In this document: positions 7,141 to 38,078 of the stretch, in pieces
Numbering within the stretch: position 1 is the first letter of the stretch
How the letters are laid out: every line of letters starts with the position of its first letter
Source: Chitinophaga niabensis
GTDB taxonomy: Bacteria > Bacteroidota > Bacteroidia > Chitinophagales > Chitinophagaceae
Assembly (NCBI GenBank): GCA_017849435.1
Contig: JAFIGY010000005.1
Span: 1-64,000 of the forward strand
Length of the DNA stretch: 64,000 nucleotides
Reading direction: 5' to 3'
Notes under the pieces: generated by a model
Told to the model about the DNA's origin: nothing
What the model saw: the letters and a program-made list of their open reading frames with translations, nothing else
Databases searched by the model: none
Program-made: the position numbers and the translations under genes

Positions 7141-7185
7141 TGTAACCAAAGTCACATTCCTTCCGGCATTTGCGGCTGATTTTTG
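7141..7185 (+). promoter_or_regulatory. Crp-type site and GAnnTTTG promoter of the YeeE operon
   Basis: TGTAA-CCAAAG-TCACA at 7141-7156 is one base from the Crp consensus TGTGA-N6-TCACA. GATTTTTG at 7178-7185 resembles the Bacteroidetes -7 element TAnnTTTG. The distance from site centre to the -7 element is 29.5 bases and from centre to start codon 55.5. Two other transcripts of the module, at 10299-10343 and 11162-11206, show the same arrangement. The predicted binder is the Crp-family protein coded at 11219-11863. The activator-like position (about -43) is inferred. Confidence 0.7.
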
Positions 7186-7203
7186 CATCTTACCTGATGC
7201 AAT

Positions 7204-7770
7204 ATGAATATCATCGAACTCATCAAACAGCCCTGGCCCTGGTATATAGCAGGACCGCTCATCGGGCTTACCGTCCCTGCGTTACTGATTCTGGGCAACA
7301 AACACTTCGGGATTTCAGCCAATCTGCGGCATGCCTGCGCCACCTGCTTCCCGGCCAACATTCCCTTCTTCCAATACGATTATAAAAAAGAGATATGGAA
7401 CCTCTTCTTTATCGTGGGAATTTTCTTTGGCGGCTTCCTCACCACTACATTCCTCGCCAACCCGCTACCGGTCAAAATACACCCCGCACTGGCACAGGAA
7501 TTAGCAACATATGGCATTACCGACTTTTCAAACATGGTACCCCGGCAACTCTTCAACTGGGAAAATCTGCTATCGTTGCGCGGCATCCTGATGCTGGCGG
7601 GAGGCGGTTTCCTTGTCGGGTTCGGATCGAGGTACGCGGGTGGTTGTACCAGTGGTCACGCCATTATGGGATTAAGTGATCTGCAATGGCCTTCTCTCGT
7701 GGCAACCTGTTGCTTTATGGCCGGTGGATTTATAATGGCGAATCTTTTCCTTCCTTTTTTACTCGGATAA
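7204..7770 (+). CDS. YeeE/YedE family sulfur transporter, first subunit
   Basis: The 188-residue membrane protein has about four or five transmembrane segments and the family motif [16 protein letters not shown] near residue 145, whose cysteine is the conserved thiol proposed to relay a sulfur anion such as thiosulfate through the channel in YeeE/TsuA. It is half-length compared with E. coli YeeE (about 350 residues). The next gene, 11 bases downstream, supplies a second, different half, so the pair probably forms one transporter. It opens the sulfur module and has the Crp-type site upstream. The substrate (thiosulfate or another sulfur species) is inferred from family and context. Confidence 0.9.
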
Positions 7771-7781
7771 AACATTTCAGT

Positions 7782-8258
7782 ATGGATAATGAAATACGCT
7801 CGCAGGATACAATCTGCGTGAATGAATCGAAGCTTGAACACAAATGGTATCACAATGGGAAATACCTGGCTGTGGGTATCCTGTTCGGTATCGTGTTCGT
7901 GAAAGCGGAAGTGATCAGCTGGTTCCGGATACAGGAGATGTTCCGGCTGCAATCCTTCCACATGTACGGCGTTATTGGCTCTGCAATCATAACAGGAATG
8001 CTGTCTGTATGGCTGATCAAAAAGTACCGGATCAAAACGATCTATGGCGAGCCGATCACTTTCACCCGCAAAAAATTCAGCAAAGGACAGGTGATCGGAG
8101 GGCTGATCTTTGGTTTGGGATGGGGGCTCACCGGTGCTTGCCCGGGGCCACTGTTTGCGCAAATAGGGACCGGCGCCGTGGTAGTGAGCGTAGTAATATT
8201 GAGCGCGATTGCCGGCACCTGGGTATATGGACGATTCCGGGAAAAGTTGCCGCATTAA
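7782..8258 (+). CDS. YeeE/YedE-like transporter, second subunit (DUF6691 type)
   Basis: The start is set at the ATG at 7782, 11 bases after the preceding stop; the frame is open further upstream but would overlap the partner gene. The 158-residue protein has an N-terminal soluble stretch of about 25 residues, four hydrophobic segments and the motif GWGLTGACPGPLF with the conserved cysteine of the family. It is the usual partner of the shorter YeeE protein in Bacteroidetes and Proteobacteria sulfur clusters. The gene ends just before the strong hairpin at 8263-8291, convergent with the thioredoxin gene. Confidence 0.88.
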   Translation: MDNEIRSQDTICVNESKLEHKWYHNGKYLAVGILFGIVFVKAEVISWFRIQEMFRLQSFHMYGVIGSAIITGMLSVWLIKKYRIKTIYGEPITFTRKKFSKGQVIGGLIFGLGWGLTGACPGPLFAQIGTGAVVVSVVILSAIAGTWVYGRFREKLPH

Positions 8259-8291
8259 AAAAGAGGGTGTTTCAAAATAAGAAACACCCTC
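8255..8291 (-). terminator. Terminator hairpin between YeeE pair and thioredoxin
   Basis: A perfect 11-bp stem (8263-8273 with 8281-8291) has a 7-base loop. Read on the minus strand it is followed by six T (8257-8262), so it mainly terminates the thioredoxin operon; the hairpin can also slow the convergent YeeE transcript. Confidence 0.85.
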
Positions 8292-8306
8292 CTCCCCTCC
8301 TATGGA

Positions 8307-8603
8307 TCAGACATACTGCCGGATCAGCTGTTCCAGCTGCCGTGCTGGCACAACGCCCGCCTGACGCCATAGCACCTTCCCCTCCTTGAATAATATAAGC
8401 GTGGGAACACTCTGCACCTGGTAGGCAGCTGCCGCGGAAGGGTTCTTGTCCACATCCACTTTGATGATGGCCGCTGTTTCCCCTACGGTATCTTTCACTT
8501 CTTCCAATATGGGCGCCATCATTTTGCAGGGTCCGCACCAGGTGGCGAAAAAGTCCACCAGCACCGGTCTGCTGCTATTAATGATCTCTGAAAATGTTGC
8601 CAT
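8307..8603 (-). CDS. Thioredoxin
   Basis: The 98-residue protein, from the ATG at 8603, is a classic thioredoxin: FFATWCGPCK with the redox pair Cys23/Cys26 and the cis-proline loop SVPTLILFKEG. The frame continues upstream by nine codons overlapping the previous gene; the shorter start fits the family. It is the last gene of the MBL/rhodanese-DUF2892-thioredoxin operon. In this context it probably reduces persulfides or protein disulfides produced by the sulfur enzymes, which is an inference from neighbours; the general thiol-disulfide reductase activity is known for the family. Confidence 0.93.
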   Translation of the reverse strand: MATFSEIINSSRPVLVDFFATWCGPCKMMAPILEEVKDTVGETAAIIKVDVDKNPSAAAAYQVQSVPTLILFKEGKVLWRQAGVVPARQLEQLIRQYV

Positions 8604-8613
8604 GATATTCGTT

Positions 8614-8853
8614 TTATGATCGCGGATCACGATGCTTTACTTCTTCGTAGATGACTTCGTCATTACGGCTGTCAAAATTATTCGAACGCGGGAGGCTGCA
8701 ACATCCTGCATTCGCTAATGCCATTCCTGCAAAAAGAATGCCTATCGCACCGATGAAAATATTGTGCAGTGCGATACCCTGCGTAATGGCCAGGATACCC
8801 ATTCCCAGTCGTACCCACCGCATGAAATGCCAGTTACTGAATAGTCTTTTCAT
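8614..8853 (-). CDS. DUF2892 small membrane protein
   Basis: The 79-residue protein has two hydrophobic segments (about 13-28 and 33-50) with RLGMGILAITQGIAL and IGILFAGMALANAGCCSLP, the pattern of the DUF2892/YgaP membrane domain. That domain is often fused to or adjacent to rhodaneses, as here, where it follows the rhodanese-containing gene by 10 bases. The Cys-Cys pair after the second segment may carry a thiol function. The C-terminus is charged and soluble. It probably works at the membrane with the sulfur-transfer proteins of the operon; the molecular role is not known. Confidence 0.82.
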   Translation of the reverse strand: MKRLFSNWHFMRWVRLGMGILAITQGIALHNIFIGAIGILFAGMALANAGCCSLPRSNNFDSRNDEVIYEEVKHRDPRS

Positions 8854-8863
8854 GTATTGTATT

Positions 8864-10282
8864 TTAAAGTAAAGTAGTTGGACAAACGAAATCGCTCACC
8901 GTAAAAAGACCGCTTTCCCTGATAGCCTTGAATCCTCCGCTGACGTTCACCAGGTTATGATATCCCCTGGCGCGCAGAATGGAATTGAAGATCATGGAAC
9001 GATACCCTCCGGCACAGTGCACGTAATACTTCATTTTGTTGTCTATCCGCTCGAGATGTTCGTTGATGTAATCAAGTGGCAAACTCACCGCATCTGTCAC
9101 ATGTTCCGAAAAATGCTCGCTTGTTTTGCGCACATCGAGGATAACGGCGGCGGGATCTTCCCTGAGCCGCGCAGCCAGTTCCTGCGGTGAGACACTTTCA
9201 ATGTGGTCCAGCTCTTTTCCCGCGGCCGTCCAGGCATCAATACCTCCCTTCAAAAAACCGATGGTATGATCATATCCAACCCGCGCCAGCCGGGTAACGG
9301 TTTCTTCTTCCATTCCCGGATCTGTGATTAGCAAAATGGGCTGGGTGATGTCAGGGATGAGGGTGCCCACCCACGGAGCAAAGCTGCCGTCAATACCGAT
9401 ATTGATGGCATTAGGCACAAAGCCCTTTGCGAAAGTTTGTGGGTCACGGGTATCCAGCAAAAGAGCGCCGGTTTCATTAGCAATGCTCTCAAAAGCAGTG
9501 GCATCCAGCGCATGCAGTCCTCTCTCCAATACCTTGTCAATGCTGTCATATCCCTGTACGTTCATCAGAACGTTCAGCGGGAAATAAGCCGGCGGCGGCG
9601 TAAGGCCATCCGTCACCTTTTGGATAAAAGCATCCTTATCCATCGGCTGCAACGCATAGTTCACAACTTTCTGATGCCCGAGCGTATCTGTAGTTTCCCT
9701 GCTCATATGCTTACCGCAGGCAGATCCCGCGCCATGTGCCGGGTAAATGATAATGTCATCCGCCAGCGGCAGTATTTTCTCCCGCAGGGAATCATACAAG
9801 TGGCCGGCCAGTTTATCCTGCGTGAGATCGCCGGAAATCTTCTGCGCGAGGTCGGGGCGACCTACATCCCCGATGAACAGGGTATCTCCCGTAAACAATC
9901 CAATCGCTTTCCCTTCTTCATTTGCCAGCAGGAAACAGCTGCTTTCCATAGTATGACCTGGGGTATGTAATATCGTAAACCGCAGATCGCCGATCCGGAA
10001 AACTTCCCTGTCTTTTGCAACATACGCCTCAAAGCCAGGTTGCGCGGTAGGGCCATAAACAATAGTGGCACCGGTTTTACGAGCGAGATCTATATGCCCG
10101 CTTACGAAATCGGCGTGAAAATGTGTTTCAAAAATGTACTTGATCCTGGCGCCATCCTTTTCCGCACGCCGGATATAAGGATCCGTTTCACGAAGCGGGT
10201 CAATAACAACCGCCTCCCCTTTATGCTGGATGTAATAAGCGCCTTGCGCCAGGCAGCCGGTGTAGATCTGTTCAATTTGCAT
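8864..10282 (-). CDS. Metallo-beta-lactamase-fold protein with two rhodanese domains (persulfide dioxygenase-like)
   Basis: The start at 10282 (MQIEQIYTGCLAQGAY) is the usual family start. Residues 1-240 form an ETHE1/glyoxalase-II-like domain with the metal motif THFHADFVSGH (His54, His56, Asp58) and DTLFIGDVGRPDL, typical of persulfide dioxygenases. Residues about 255-355 form a rhodanese domain without an active-site cysteine (ITDPGMEEET where the loop should be). Residues about 370-472 form a second rhodanese with the active loop HCAGGYRS. Fusions of this kind oxidise or transfer sulfane sulfur. It heads the operon with DUF2892 and thioredoxin and has a Crp-type site about 54 bases upstream. 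Confidence 0.92.
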   Translation of the reverse strand: MQIEQIYTGCLAQGAYYIQHKGEAVVIDPLRETDPYIRRAEKDGARIKYIFETHFHADFVSGHIDLARKTGATIVYGPTAQPGFEAYVAKDREVFRIGDLRFTILHTPGHTMESSCFLLANEEGKAIGLFTGDTLFIGDVGRPDLAQKISGDLTQDKLAGHLYDSLREKILPLADDIIIYPAHGAGSACGKHMSRETTDTLGHQKVVNYALQPMDKDAFIQKVTDGLTPPPAYFPLNVLMNVQGYDSIDKVLERGLHALDATAFESIANETGALLLDTRDPQTFAKGFVPNAINIGIDGSFAPWVGTLIPDITQPILLITDPGMEEETVTRLARVGYDHTIGFLKGGIDAWTAAGKELDHIESVSPQELAARLREDPAAVILDVRKTSEHFSEHVTDAVSLPLDYINEHLERIDNKMKYYVHCAGGYRSMIFNSILRARGYHNLVNVSGGFKAIRESGLFTVSDFVCPTTLL

Positions 10283-10298
10283 GATTGAAAGTTTTAAA

Positions 10299-10343
10299 CA
10301 AATTTCGGGAAATGTAAGGGCAGGAAAGGTGACTATGGTCACA
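10299..10343 (-). promoter_or_regulatory. Crp-type site and GAnnTTTG promoter of the MBL/rhodanese operon
   Basis: On the minus strand TGTGA-CCATAG-TCACC lies at 10343-10328 and GAAATTTG at 10306-10299. The centre-to-box distance is 29.5 bases and centre-to-ATG 53.5, matching the sites at 7141 and 11206. It lies in the gap between this gene and the upstream TauE gene, so the operon can be transcribed separately. Confidence 0.72.
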
Positions 10344-10352
10344 TAAGCTACC

Positions 10353-11144
10353 TTATCTGATCAGTTCCGTGATGAGGATATAGACGCCCATCGCCATCAC
10401 GAACCAGCCGAACATCTTTTTCAACGGAGCATGATCGATCTTTCTGCCCAAAAAACCGCCAAGGAAAATACCTGCCGCAGCCAACAGGCTGATGCGAAAC
10501 AATAAAGGCCAGTCTATCGGATATTGCCCGAAATCCCCCGCAAATCCGATCAGGGAATTGAGCGTGATAATGAGCAATGAGGTGCCTACCGCTTTCTTCA
10601 TGGGTAACCGGACCACCATGATCAATGCCGGGATGAGAAGAAAGCCGCCTCCCGCGCCCAACAATCCCGTCACCAATCCAAGTCCCATCCCGTAAAGGAA
10701 CAACCGAACCCATTGATACGGCCCGGATGATGACTGCTCCGCGGTAAGCTGCTGCGGGCGGATCATGAATACAGCCGCCGCGATCATCAATACCGCCAAC
10801 AACACCATCGTCAGCATCGCCCTGGTAAGTGTAAACCCTGCAACGGTGAGGATCGTTTCCGGGATAGCCGGCATGAGGTATAAACGGGTGAAGAGCACGG
10901 TGAGAATGGAAGAAAAACCGAATAGTAATACGGCGGATACATGCACCTGCCGCTGGCGGTAACTGTTATAAGCGCCGATCATGCTGGTAAAACCAACCAC
11001 AAAAAGCGAGTAAGAAGTGGCCAGCGGCGGGGATATCCGGAAGAAATAGACAAGCACCGGTATTGTTAGTATAGAGCCTCCGCCACCTATCAGGCCGAGG
11101 GATAAACCGATCAGCACGGCGGCAGCATAACCCAGAATTTCCAT
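10353..11144 (-). CDS. TauE/SafE family sulfite/sulfur exporter
   Basis: The 263-residue protein has about eight hydrophobic segments and the family features LIGGGGSILTIPVLVYF near the N-terminus and GAGGGFLLIPALIMV at the start of the second repeat, the internal duplication typical of TauE/SafE (DUF81). Members export organosulfur anions or sulfite. In this cluster it probably removes sulfite made by the persulfide dioxygenase-like enzyme, an inference from context. It has its own Crp-type site upstream; its stop is only 10 bases from the regulatory site of the next operon. Confidence 0.92.
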   Translation of the reverse strand: MEILGYAAAVLIGLSLGLIGGGGSILTIPVLVYFFRISPPLATSYSLFVVGFTSMIGAYNSYRQRQVHVSAVLLFGFSSILTVLFTRLYLMPAIPETILTVAGFTLTRAMLTMVLLAVLMIAAAVFMIRPQQLTAEQSSSGPYQWVRLFLYGMGLGLVTGLLGAGGGFLLIPALIMVVRLPMKKAVGTSLLIITLNSLIGFAGDFGQYPIDWPLLFRISLLAAAGIFLGGFLGRKIDHAPLKKMFGWFVMAMGVYILITELIR

Positions 11145-11161
11145 TGCATACGGATTTTCTG

Positions 11162-11206
11162 CAAAGGTCCTGCCTCGTTCCTGCGAGAACGGTAACTTTT
11201 ATCACA
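11162..11206 (-). promoter_or_regulatory. Crp-type site and GAnnTTTG promoter of the TauE gene
   Basis: On the minus strand TGTGA-TAAAAG-TTACC lies at 11206-11191 and GACCTTTG at 11169-11162. Centre-to-box distance is 29.5 bases, identical to the sites at 7141 and 10343, and centre-to-ATG is 54.5. It sits between the TauE gene and the regulator gene at 11219. Confidence 0.68.
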
Positions 11207-11218
11207 AACGGGAAAATA

Positions 11219-11863
11219 TCAGGCCAGCCATTCGATGTAGTTCTTGTAGAGCGCTACTTTACCCTGATGCTCCATTTTTTTCAGCAACCGGGAAATAACC
11301 TCCCTTGAGCTGTTCAGGTCATTGGCAATCTCCTGATGTGTGATCCGCAATTGCCCGGAGCCGAGATCCTGTGTTTGTTTGCGGAGATAAAATTCGAGCC
11401 TTTCATCCATTGCGCGGAATGCGATACTGTCGATCACGGTGAGCAATTCCTCAAAGCGGGAACGGTAGGTTTCGAGAACGAAATAGTACCACGATCTGTA
11501 TTCCCTCATCAGTTCATCCATGATGCTGATGGGAATAGTGATCACCGTGGTGTCATCCACCGCTTTGGCCATGATCTCGCTTTTCTGCTGGCGCGTGGCG
11601 CAGATGATGGACAGCGCACAAGCGCTCCCCGGTTCCAGGTAGTACATAAAGAACTCCCCGCCCTCTTCTCCTTCCCTGTAAAGCTTTACGCGGCCTTCTG
11701 CAATGAGCATTGCAGAACGGAAATATTGACCTGTTTGCATCAACGTTTCCCCAGCCCTGAAATGCCGCAATTCCGCATGGCTTTCCAGCTTCGATCGCAA
11801 TGCGGTCTCAAATTGAGGGAAATGCTGCGCAAGATATGCTGATATGGATGCCTGATCTGACAT
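11219..11863 (-). CDS. Crp/Fnr family regulator of the sulfur module
   Basis: The 214-residue protein has a cyclic-nucleotide-binding-type beta roll (about 30-120), a dimer helix and a C-terminal winged helix with ITHQEIANDLNSSREVISRLLKK. The recognition helix carries R-E-x-x-x-R, the residues with which E. coli Crp reads TGTGA, in agreement with the three TGTGA-like sites in the module. The effector pocket does not show the cAMP arginine-serine motif clearly. A Cys pair in SACALSIICATRQQ could sense persulfide or redox state, but this is speculative. It is coded next to the genes it is predicted to control and has no such site itself. Confidence 0.9.
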   Translation of the reverse strand: MSDQASISAYLAQHFPQFETALRSKLESHAELRHFRAGETLMQTGQYFRSAMLIAEGRVKLYREGEEGGEFFMYYLEPGSACALSIICATRQQKSEIMAKAVDDTTVITIPISIMDELMREYRSWYYFVLETYRSRFEELLTVIDSIAFRAMDERLEFYLRKQTQDLGSGQLRITHQEIANDLNSSREVISRLLKKMEHQGKVALYKNYIEWLA

Positions 11864-12354: not shown

Positions 12355-12891
12355 TTATTTTTTGGTTACAGGAACGGATAATTCGATCTTCACCATATCA
12401 TCCACGTCACCGCCCGGTTTACCGATCTTGAAATCGTTCCTGTTCACGGTAAAAGCGCCGGCAAAAGTGCCTTCGTTCCCTTTCTGCGCAAATGTAAAGG
12501 GAATACCGATCTCCTTCTTCTGCCCGTGCATCTCCAGTGTACCGGTGGCCAGGTAATTGTTACCATTCTTTGTGATCCGGGAAGAAGTGAATTTGATCAG
12601 CGGGAATTTGTCCGCCTCAAACCAATCCGACCCTTTTGCATGTTTGTTCTGCAAGCCGTTGCCGGTATTGATGGAAGCCACTTCAATGTTCATATCGAAC
12701 TTTGAAGCGCCCAGGTTTTTTTCATCAAAAGCGATATCGCCCTTGAGCGTTTTGAAAATGCCGGACACACCGGGATTGGAGAACTGCACATTGTAGTTGG
12801 TCTTGATCTGCCAACCCTGCGCGGCGGCTGTAAATGCAAACACTGCCGCGATTGCGAGCAGTGTTGCAAATGAAAAAATGACTCTTTTCAT
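12355..12891 (-). CDS. YceI family periplasmic protein (copy 1)
   Basis: The 178-residue protein has a signal peptide (1-24, ending TAAAQ) and the YceI lipocalin-like fold: WQIKTNYNVQFSNPG at the start, then KSNxxDxx-type strands with ASINTGNGLQNKHAKGSDWF, and EMHGQKKEIGIPFTF. YceI proteins bind isoprenoid lipids such as polyprenyl chains. It is only distantly similar to its neighbour at 12896, so the pair is an old duplication. Spacing of 4 bases to the upstream YceI gene shows co-transcription. Function beyond lipid binding is unknown. Confidence 0.9.
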   Translation of the reverse strand: MKRVIFSFATLLAIAAVFAFTAAAQGWQIKTNYNVQFSNPGVSGIFKTLKGDIAFDEKNLGASKFDMNIEVASINTGNGLQNKHAKGSDWFEADKFPLIKFTSSRITKNGNNYLATGTLEMHGQKKEIGIPFTFAQKGNEGTFAGAFTVNRNDFKIGKPGGDVDDMVKIELSVPVTKK

Positions 12892-12895
12892 TTTA

Positions 12896-13483
12896 TTATT
12901 CTTTAACGAATTCTAAATCAGCTTCCAGCGCAACGTCTTCTCCCAGCATGGCAGCAGGCATGGAAGTACCGATACCAAACTCAGAGCGTTTTACGATACC
13001 GCCTACTTTAAAGCCTACCATATCTTTCTTGCTGCGGGGGTGCTGCGTGGTACCTACCAATGTTGCATTCAGGGCTACTTCTTTGGTAACGCCATGCAGG
13101 GTAAGGTCGCCGGTCACCTTGTAATTGTTGCCGCTTACTTTCCTGAAAGATTTGCTTTTGAAAGTCATGGTCGGGAATTTCTCGGCATCAAAGAAATCAG
13201 GGCTCTTCAGGTGTTTGTCCCGCATTTCATTATCGGTGTTGATACCATTGACACCAGCAGTAAGTTCCACTTCAGCGCCGTCGAAATCGGCTTTGGCGGA
13301 TTTGATCACGGCTTTATACTCTTTGAAGTTGCCATGGAAGGTGTTGATGCCCATGTGCTGAACGCTGAAGCCCATTCTTGAGTGTACGGCATCCACATTC
13401 CAGGAAGCCGCATCCATAATAGTAAAGGAGAACAGCATGCATGCCGCTAATGCTGCTACTACGCTAAAAGTTGCTCTTTTCAT
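12896..13483 (-). CDS. YceI family periplasmic protein (copy 2)
   Basis: From the ATG at 13483 the 195-residue protein has a signal peptide (about 1-23) followed by a canonical YceI domain: WNVDAVHSRMGFSVQHMG, the loop GINTDNEMRDKHLKSPDFF and DLTLHGVTKEVAL. An ATG six codons upstream (13501) is in frame but weakens the signal peptide. It heads the operon YceI-YceI-membrane protein and is divergent from the HxlR regulator gene at 13631, with palindromes in the 147-base gap. A related YceI protein is coded at 38195. Expression under control of the HxlR protein is inferred from the divergent arrangement. Confidence 0.92.
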   Translation of the reverse strand: MKRATFSVVAALAACMLFSFTIMDAASWNVDAVHSRMGFSVQHMGINTFHGNFKEYKAVIKSAKADFDGAEVELTAGVNGINTDNEMRDKHLKSPDFFDAEKFPTMTFKSKSFRKVSGNNYKVTGDLTLHGVTKEVALNATLVGTTQHPRSKKDMVGFKVGGIVKRSEFGIGTSMPAAMLGEDVALEADLEFVKE

Positions 13484-13562
13484 ACTTTGTGTGTTTCTCA
13501 ATTTTCTGTTCAGGAATATACCCGGTTATACCAAGTTAACGCAAATCTACGTATCTTTACTA

Positions 13563-37292: not shown

Positions 37293-37487
37293 AGATCGTC
37301 AGATATTTGAGTAAATATTCCTAACAGGTTTCCTGGCGATAAATATAAAAAGTCCGATGTTACATGGGTATATGCTCTCTTTCATTTTAACACACTATTA
37401 GGCTTTCTTGAAAACTTTCCGGGAAGCGAAGTACGCGTAGAACAGCCGGTTGAAAAATGATGTATATTTAAGTCACAAGGCCAGGAG

Positions 37488-38078
37488 ATGGGAACACACG
37501 ATACATTATTCGATTATATAAGCCGCTACGCTGCCACGCCGCTTACCAGCGAAGAAAAAGACACGATCCGGCAGGTTTTTCTGCCGAAGAAACTGAGAAA
37601 GAAACAATACTTTTTGCAGGAAGGGGTTGTATGCAAATACTCCGGCTTTATCGTGAAAGGCGCTATGCGTCAATATAGTGTAGACGAGAAGGGAGTGGAG
37701 CATGTAACAGGGCTTTTCATCGAGAACTGGTGGGTCACCGACCTGGAGAGTTTTACCATGCTTACCCCCTCGATATACAATATCGATGCTTGGGAAGACA
37801 CCGAATTGTTGCAGATCTCGCAAGCCGATACCCTTGCTTACCTCAACCCCATCCCGGCAATACAGGAACTGTCGAAACAGCTTACCGATAACCACACTTT
37901 CGCCCTTCACAAAAGACTGCATTCTTCCATTACAGATTCCGCAGAAAAACGTTACGAGGTATTAGCCAATGCCTATCCTGAATTCCTGCAACGTTTTCCG
38001 CAACACGTCATTGCCTCCTATCTGGGCGTGACGAAAGAAACCCTCAGCCGCATCTGCAGCCGCGCCGTCAGAAAATAA
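37488..38078 (+). CDS. Crp/Fnr family regulator with FNR-like recognition helix
   Basis: The 196-residue protein has an N-terminal beta-roll (about 25-120) and a short winged-helix C-terminus (FPQHVIASYLGVTKETLSRICSR). The recognition helix has E-T-L-S-R, like the E-T-I-S-R of FNR that reads TTGAT half-sites; the four N-terminal cysteines of FNR are absent, so it is not an iron-sulfur oxygen sensor. A TTGA-N6-TCAA site lies in the gap right after it, upstream of YceI and the luciferase-like gene, which it may control. It is clearly different from the Crp-like protein at 11219. Confidence 0.9.
   Translation: MGTHDTLFDYISRYAATPLTSEEKDTIRQVFLPKKLRKKQYFLQEGVVCKYSGFIVKGAMRQYSVDEKGVEHVTGLFIENWWVTDLESFTMLTPSIYNIDAWEDTELLQISQADTLAYLNPIPAIQELSKQLTDNHTFALHKRLHSSITDSAEKRYEVLANAYPEFLQRFPQHVIASYLGVTKETLSRICSRAVRK

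Follow-up and report, generated by a model that had tools for sequence, protein, structure and literature searches.

Class II promoters of the cyclic AMP (cAMP) receptor protein CRP in Escherichia coli carry a TGTGA-N6-TCACA site that is centred at -41.5, replaces the upstream promoter element, and is read by a recognition helix of the form RExxxR. BigR of Acinetobacter baumannii controls a persulfide dioxygenase (PDO) with YeeE/YedE proteins, FisR controls a PDO, SQR, and TauE, and operons with the kinds of enzymes considered here are induced by sulfide (PMC7315123). CstR and SqrR, which control persulfide enzymes, use a pair of cysteines that become joined by di- to tetrasulfide bridges (PMC9774590), and PgRsp of Porphyromonas gingivalis is a 207-residue redox regulator that binds heme and acts on hmu, bcp, and its own promoter (PMC6955866). 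A stretch of 64,000 nucleotides from Chitinophaga niabensis (positions 1 to 64,000 of contig JAFIGY010000005.1, assembly GCA_017849435.1), here called the window, contained a sulfur gene module with three promoters that carry Crp-type palindromes, next to a gene for a Crp/Fnr-family regulator.

The sequence gives good support to the prediction of a local and conserved class II Crp regulon that governs persulfide handling. The locus as a whole is probably best explained by a local class II Crp activator of the sulfur module that answers to reactive sulfur, and the parts of this explanation differ in strength. The regulator is predicted with little doubt to act on the three promoters, it very likely works as an activator, its signal would on balance be reactive sulfur, and sensing through Cys82 and Cys88 is proposed only tentatively. 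The locus resembles the class II CRP promoters of E. coli in its palindrome, the predicted -41.5 centre, the RExxxR helix, and the location of the site in place of an upstream element, but it differs in having a -7 box (nAnnTTTG) instead of the -10 hexamer, in cAMP contacts that are not conserved, and in the local extent of the regulon. Since BigR and FisR control similar enzymes in Acinetobacter, a known module appears to have a different regulator here, a Crp-family protein instead of an ArsR repressor (BigR) or a sigma-54 activator (FisR). The cysteine pair of the regulator and its near relatives, and the predicted control of persulfide enzymes, recall CstR and SqrR; however, those are repressors of unrelated folds, whereas here the Cx5C motif belongs to the pocket of a Crp protein, and the second cysteine is missing from some distant members of the regulator family. 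PgRsp is likewise a Bacteroidota Crp/Fnr protein of similar size, with Cys76 seemingly at the same place, and the portion of its account considered here mentions no sulfur module (PMC6955866). Among the open-licence titles and abstracts listed, no Crp/Fnr regulator of Bacteroidota persulfide genes was found, an absence that carries little weight.

The module and its control elements are arranged in the window as follows.

7141..7156, + strand: Crp-type palindrome TGTAACCAAAGTCACA, ahead of the YeeE pair, predicted centre -41.5
7178..7185, + strand: -7 box GATTTTTG, predicted transcript start at about 7190
7204..7770, + strand: YeeE/YedE half 1 (Sulf_transp, PF04143)
7782..8258, + strand: YeeE/YedE half 2 (DUF6691 / Sulf_transp)
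8307..8603, - strand: thioredoxin (TIGR01068 over cut-off), putative last gene of the PDO transcript
8614..8853, - strand: small protein of 79 amino acids, membrane-like by look
8864..10282, - strand: PDO with rhodanese domains (Lactamase_B and two Rhodanese stretches)
10299..10306, - strand: -7 box GAAATTTG, predicted transcript start at about 10294
10328..10343, - strand: Crp-type palindrome TGTGACCATAGTCACC, ahead of PDO
10353..11144, - strand: TauE/SafE exporter family gene (PF01925)
11162..11169, - strand: -7 box GACCTTTG, predicted transcript start at about 11157
11191..11206, - strand: Crp-type palindrome TGTGATAAAAGTTACC, ahead of TauE and shortly after the stop codon of the regulator
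11219..11863, - strand: Crp/Fnr-family regulator with C82-x5-C88 in the region of the cyclic-nucleotide (cNMP) pocket and recognition helix REVISR

The product of 8864-10282 is presumably a persulfide dioxygenase, a name taken from the domain layout. The small protein at 8614-8853 had no Pfam match, and DUF2892 is our presumptive working label for it; its relatives, searched with a shortened reading of 68 amino acids, occurred in 9 of the 80 loci of relatives described below.

In the proposed mechanism, a dimer of the regulator would bind directly to the TGTGAC-N4-GTCACA palindromes centred at -41.5 in three target promoters, which would serve the YeeE pair, a putative operon of PDO, the small protein, and thioredoxin, and TauE. 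The dimer would cover the -33 region and help the main sigma factor to use the weak nAnnTTTG box. The regulator would most likely sense persulfide or polysulfide through Cys82 and, in most members, Cys88, at the place where cAMP binds in CRP, and a sulfur load would then induce the genes that oxidize persulfide, transport sulfur, and export sulfite/thiosulfate.

Spacing and conservation of the Crp-type sites

The preliminary description of the window had reported three palindromes at constant distances from a GAnnTTTG box, and all of its coordinates and distances proved correct. The sites at 7141-7156 (+), 10328-10343 (-), and 11191-11206 (-) had their centres 29.5 bases from the first base of GAnnTTTG in all three promoters, and 55.5, 53.5, and 54.5 bases from the ATG, respectively. 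The sigma-A box TAnnTTTG of Flavobacterium psychrophilum occupies -12 to -5 (PMC9723704). Because the box starts at -12 and the palindrome centre is 29.5 bases before it, the centre would lie at -41.5. Counted from the predicted starts, the palindromes cover -49 to -34, which adjoins or overlaps the place of the -33 element, and the predicted leaders are 14, 12, and 13 bases long for the starts at about 7190, 10294, and 11157. With transcript starts so predicted, the sites would occupy the position of a class II Crp activator.

The palindrome alone was rejected as evidence because of its frequency in the genome (23 contigs, 5.0 Mb), where the half-site pattern TGTRA-N6-TYACM had 89 matches (79 distinct places, 10 of them listed on both strands) and the reversed pattern had 39. 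In the window, this pattern had 4 matches, one palindrome being counted on both strands, versus 0.76 expected, and 1 of 100 window shuffles reached 4; the probability of at least three matches in this 4 kb was about 4e-5. A scan for the palindrome followed by GAnnTTTG (gap 15-21) gave exactly three matches in 5.0 Mb, all in the module and all with an identical gap, whereas the reversed control gave none, and a chance agreement of the three sites, which had been called unlikely, is indeed very unlikely. The regulon had also been termed self-contained, which holds for the GAnnTTTG matches and does not hold entirely for the relaxed box (A instead of GA), with which the fixed-distance pattern had four genome matches, three in the module and one at another locus. 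No site was found within 200 bases of the second YeeE (contig C12) and the second PDO (contig C16) of the genome.

A search of named bacterial genomes for relatives of the regulator gave at least 589 matching stretches, of which 587 were confirmed and the best 80 were kept; these loci, retrieved with flanks of up to 7 kb, came from Chitinophaga, Pedobacter, Dyadobacter, Flavobacterium, Niastella, and other genera. The closest named relatives, among the matches listed, belonged to Chitinophaga, Pelobium, Pedobacter, and other Bacteroidota. The search required a similar recognition helix, and the conservation of the helix in the 80 loci is therefore built in. By tblastn, TauE was present in 67 of the 80 loci, PDO in 69 (with a match of at least 100 residues to the start of the protein in 59), and YeeE halves 1 and 2 in 30 and 29, respectively. 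At two loci (L120 and L147), the PDO match was split among several reading frames, as would be expected of a broken gene or a misassembly.

The site, with up to one mismatch, was present in 102 of 151 regions upstream of TauE, PDO, and YeeE (54/61, 39/62, and 9/28, respectively), versus 7.8% of 20,000 random windows; 21 of the 151 inferred starts were not ATG and were retained in this count. Of the 102 sites, 72 had a TTTG that started 33.5 bases from the centre and five had it at 34.5, and no other offset was shared by more than two. After dereplication, the +33.5 offset was kept in 53 of 74 sites at 75% (with five at +34.5 and at most two at any other offset) and in 41 of 61 at 65%. The distance from the centre to the start codon ranged from 42.5 to 112.5 in these relatives, and this wide variation indicates that the constant distance to the box is not a by-product of it. 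Alignment of orthologous upstream regions, which had been suggested as a check, thus found both the site and its spacing conserved.

A scan of the 80 loci that ignored gene positions gave 90 matches, versus one for the reversed pattern. By tblastn overlap, 78 of these matches preceded module genes, namely TauE (41), PDO (32, comprising 28 long and four short PDO-like genes), YeeE (4), and Crp (1). The other 12 lay elsewhere and included, by look, four single rhodanese genes, a gene for a YgaP-like small protein, and two outer-membrane-efflux-like genes. These last two, at L108:7928 and L118:6831, were found in Flavobacterium metagenome-assembled genomes, and they suggest an export step in some regulons.

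Autoregulation as a rule was rejected. No match to the site pattern was found upstream of the regulator gene at 11219-11863, and the pattern lay within 220 bases upstream of only one of the 80 Crp genes. At L080 (Chitinophaga rupis) and L057, the regulator and YeeE genes are divergent and have a single perfect palindrome between them, and this arrangement is the only case among the 80 with the pattern before the regulator's own gene.

The GA of the -7 box had been proposed as a signal of activator dependence, a view that the relatives do not bear out. The first box base in the 53 dereplicated sites was G in 18, C in 17, T in 11, and A in seven, and the second was A in 52; GA as a special signature was therefore rejected, as only the A is fixed. 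Dependence on an activator remains plausible on other grounds, because the site covers the -33 region and TTG is rare there (3 of 53 dereplicated sites); the free first base and the rare TTG also make the promoters look weak on their own. This bears on whether the protein could instead be a repressor that is released by sulfur, as BigR, SqrR, and CstR are. Those sensors are called repressors (PMC9774590), and a repressor site would likewise cover the -33 region. However, promoters that look weak alone do not fit this alternative well. Class II activation needs a fixed -41.5 position, whereas repression tolerates many positions; the fixed spacing observed here fits class II activation, and a repressor is accordingly considered improbable.

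Distribution across genomes and Crp paralogues

The fixed-distance pattern had 60 matches in 40 genomes (C. niabensis included), versus 12 for the reversed pattern, and perhaps a fifth of the 60 are therefore background. The genes downstream at 30 fetched loci were named by resemblance except for those scanned by Pfam. Resemblance placed PDO, TauE, and YeeE among them, and Pfam identified a pyridine-nucleotide-disulfide oxidoreductase, OsmC, a peroxiredoxin of the 1-Cys type, and a membrane protein like YgaP. Alpha/beta hydrolases formed a separate group, and some other genes had no obvious connection to sulfur. At L177 (G014:C1:5433839-5433967), divergent site matches are flanked by a gene for a pyridine-nucleotide-disulfide oxidoreductase and by a YeeE copy that contains internal stops.

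The sites were also compared between genomes with and without the regulator, the latter being those whose best E was above 1e-20. This comparison used 60 fetched loci from 50 YeeE and 72 PDO matches, and L257, which is located at the end of a contig and did not pass the frame check, was counted as lacking a site. Sites were present at 13 of 44 YeeE/PDO genes where the regulator was present versus 0 of 16 where it was absent (Fisher p = 0.013), or at 12 of 44 (p = 0.025) after the doubtful G037 site was dropped.

Several counts weigh against the proposed regulon. Forty-nine of the 151 upstream regions lacked the site, as did 31 of the 44 YeeE/PDO genes examined where the regulator was present; such missing sites are partly due to operon-internal genes or other paralogue groups, and the 0 of 16 is likewise confounded. 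The sites in G035 and G037 were weak or far from the gene. Among 296 genomes of the phylum, the pattern occurred in 110 and the reversed pattern in about 55 (a count by eye), and the excess lay in the class of the window, while the matches from genomes that share only its phylum look like background. In G060, G064, G107, G123, and many other genomes of one family (f20), the pattern was matched by a near-identical 45-mer beginning with TGTGAATACCATTACG, which could belong to a conserved coding region instead of a promoter.

The genome contained 15 matches to the cNMP domain (14 full-length readings), of which three had an RExxxR helix: the regulator in the window, a protein on contig C2 beside the fourth site, and one on contig C7. 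The window regulator was the only one of these proteins with C-x5-C in the pocket, another having the motif in an N-terminal cysteine cluster. The window also encodes, at 37479-38066 (+), another Crp-like protein that has a weak cNMP domain (30 bits) and no RExxxR helix. The C2 locus (L169, G000:C2, about 282020-283420) encodes a Crp protein with the helix RETLSR before an alpha/beta hydrolase, and it carries a site (TGTGATTGAGATCACG) and a box (TATTTTTG) at a distance identical to that in the module. Crp, site, and hydrolase recur together in relatives (for example, G004), as do Crp and site in G022; the hydrolase with its site was also observed in other genomes of the genus. The shared spacing implies that Bacteroidota Crp proteins may use this geometry generally. 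Cross-talk between the C2 locus and the sulfur module is possible, although their sites differ in the inner bases.

These data also address whether the spacing agreement is fortuitous or the palindromes serve another Crp paralogue. The abundance of the palindrome alone (89 matches) and the two other RExxxR proteins in the genome would favor this explanation, but the site and spacing are conserved in relatives, none of the 16 genes tested without the regulator had a site, and one of the two RExxxR paralogues has its own site next door. Chance is very unlikely, and this explanation as a whole is barely credible. Conservation in relatives, the lack of sites in the absence of the regulator, and the RExxxR helix in only three of 15 cNMP matches together strengthen the assignment of the three promoters to the window regulator.

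The regulator and its possible signal

The regulator belongs to the Crp/Fnr superfamily by PF00027 (44.7 bits), PF13545 (36.7), and PF00325 (29.1), all over cut-off, and the 50 listed Foldseek matches were Crp/Fnr-family proteins such as CRP, NtcA, Vfr, and FNR. Its sequence SSREVISR (helix REVISR) confirmed the RExxxR helix that had been described. R187, S191, and R192 were kept in 80 of 80 relatives, as the search pattern required, and C82, C88, E70, and S95 were also kept in all 80. C82 and C88 are the sole cysteines of the protein, which has no FNR-type N-terminal cysteine cluster, and by profile alignment they fall in what we take to be the phosphate-binding cassette of CRP. In the structure model (mean pLDDT 86.5, pTM 0.63), a helix spans residues 83-91, with C82 immediately preceding it and C88 within it. 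By both sequence and fold, the best solved relative was PDB 3DV8, a Crp/Fnr protein of Eubacterium rectale that has C-x5-C at the aligned place but comes from another phylum. The conserved Cys82 and Cys88 suggest a reactive-sulfur sensor.

This assignment has to be set against contrary findings on the same residues. Model certainty was lowest at the cysteines (pLDDT 68 for residues 81-90). In a wider homologue set, 26 of 28 sequences were readable (L029 and L053 were left out); C82 was kept in all 26 and C88 in 19, leaving seven without it. C88-less proteins also adjoined PDO genes with the site in G016, G017, G022, and G023. The cysteine pair is therefore not essential for the link to sulfur, and the case for C88 as an essential sensor residue is weakened.

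A heme- or redox-sensing activator such as PgRsp or CooA would have the sulfur genes answer oxidative or gas stress. In favor of such a signal and against reactive sulfur, PgRsp is a heme-binding Bacteroidota Crp/Fnr protein modelled on 3DV8, the best solved relative here too, and its Cys76, Met78, and His85 (PMC6955866) match the spacing of C, M, and H (C, +2, +9) in the C88-less relatives, a spacing that suggests kinship. Genes for peroxiredoxin and OsmC also carry sites in relatives. However, the branch of the window regulator has no His at +9 from C82 in any of the 80 relatives, where this position is K, R, Q, E, or S, and the heme spectra of PgRsp were unchanged by single replacement of Cys76, Met78, or His85 (PMC6955866). 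Most matches in the 80 loci (78 of 90) also precede module genes, and a heme or redox signal is considered unlikely.

The Crp fold, the RExxxR helix, and the TGTGA site would also be expected of a cAMP-responsive CRP, with the module under catabolite control. In CRP, E72 and R82 contact cAMP. Profile alignment to CRP (4BH9) gave a gap at E72, and the two columns that possibly match R82 (93 and 94) had Arg in only one and three of the 80 relatives. The invariant S95 may be the counterpart of the CRP cAMP contact S83, which speaks for cAMP and against a reactive-sulfur signal. Unlike a global regulon, the fixed-distance pattern had only four genome matches, sites at other distances not being sorted by gene. 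Mainly because of the E72 gap and the R82 columns, cAMP control appears highly improbable.

The papers compared describe sulfide and persulfide sensors of Proteobacteria and Firmicutes that act as repressors or, in one case, as a sigma-54 activator, and a Crp-type reactive-sulfur activator would be a separate solution that is common in Bacteroidota. It would also provide a clean class II geometry (-41.5) in a phylum whose promoters follow a code of their own, and other Bacteroidota Crp regulons should be readable from sequence likewise, the Crp/hydrolase pair being a first example. A broader and speculative possibility is that Bacteroidota commonly have, and Firmicutes perhaps also have (3DV8), a family of Crp-fold sulfur sensors whose cyclic-nucleotide pocket was converted into a trap for persulfide. 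The trap would rest on a single invariant cysteine, usually followed by another six residues later, and the family would provide class II activation for the same enzymes that other phyla place under ArsR, CsoR, or sigma-54 regulators. Beyond the module, a tandem pair of YceI-like genes follows at 12355-13501 of the window.

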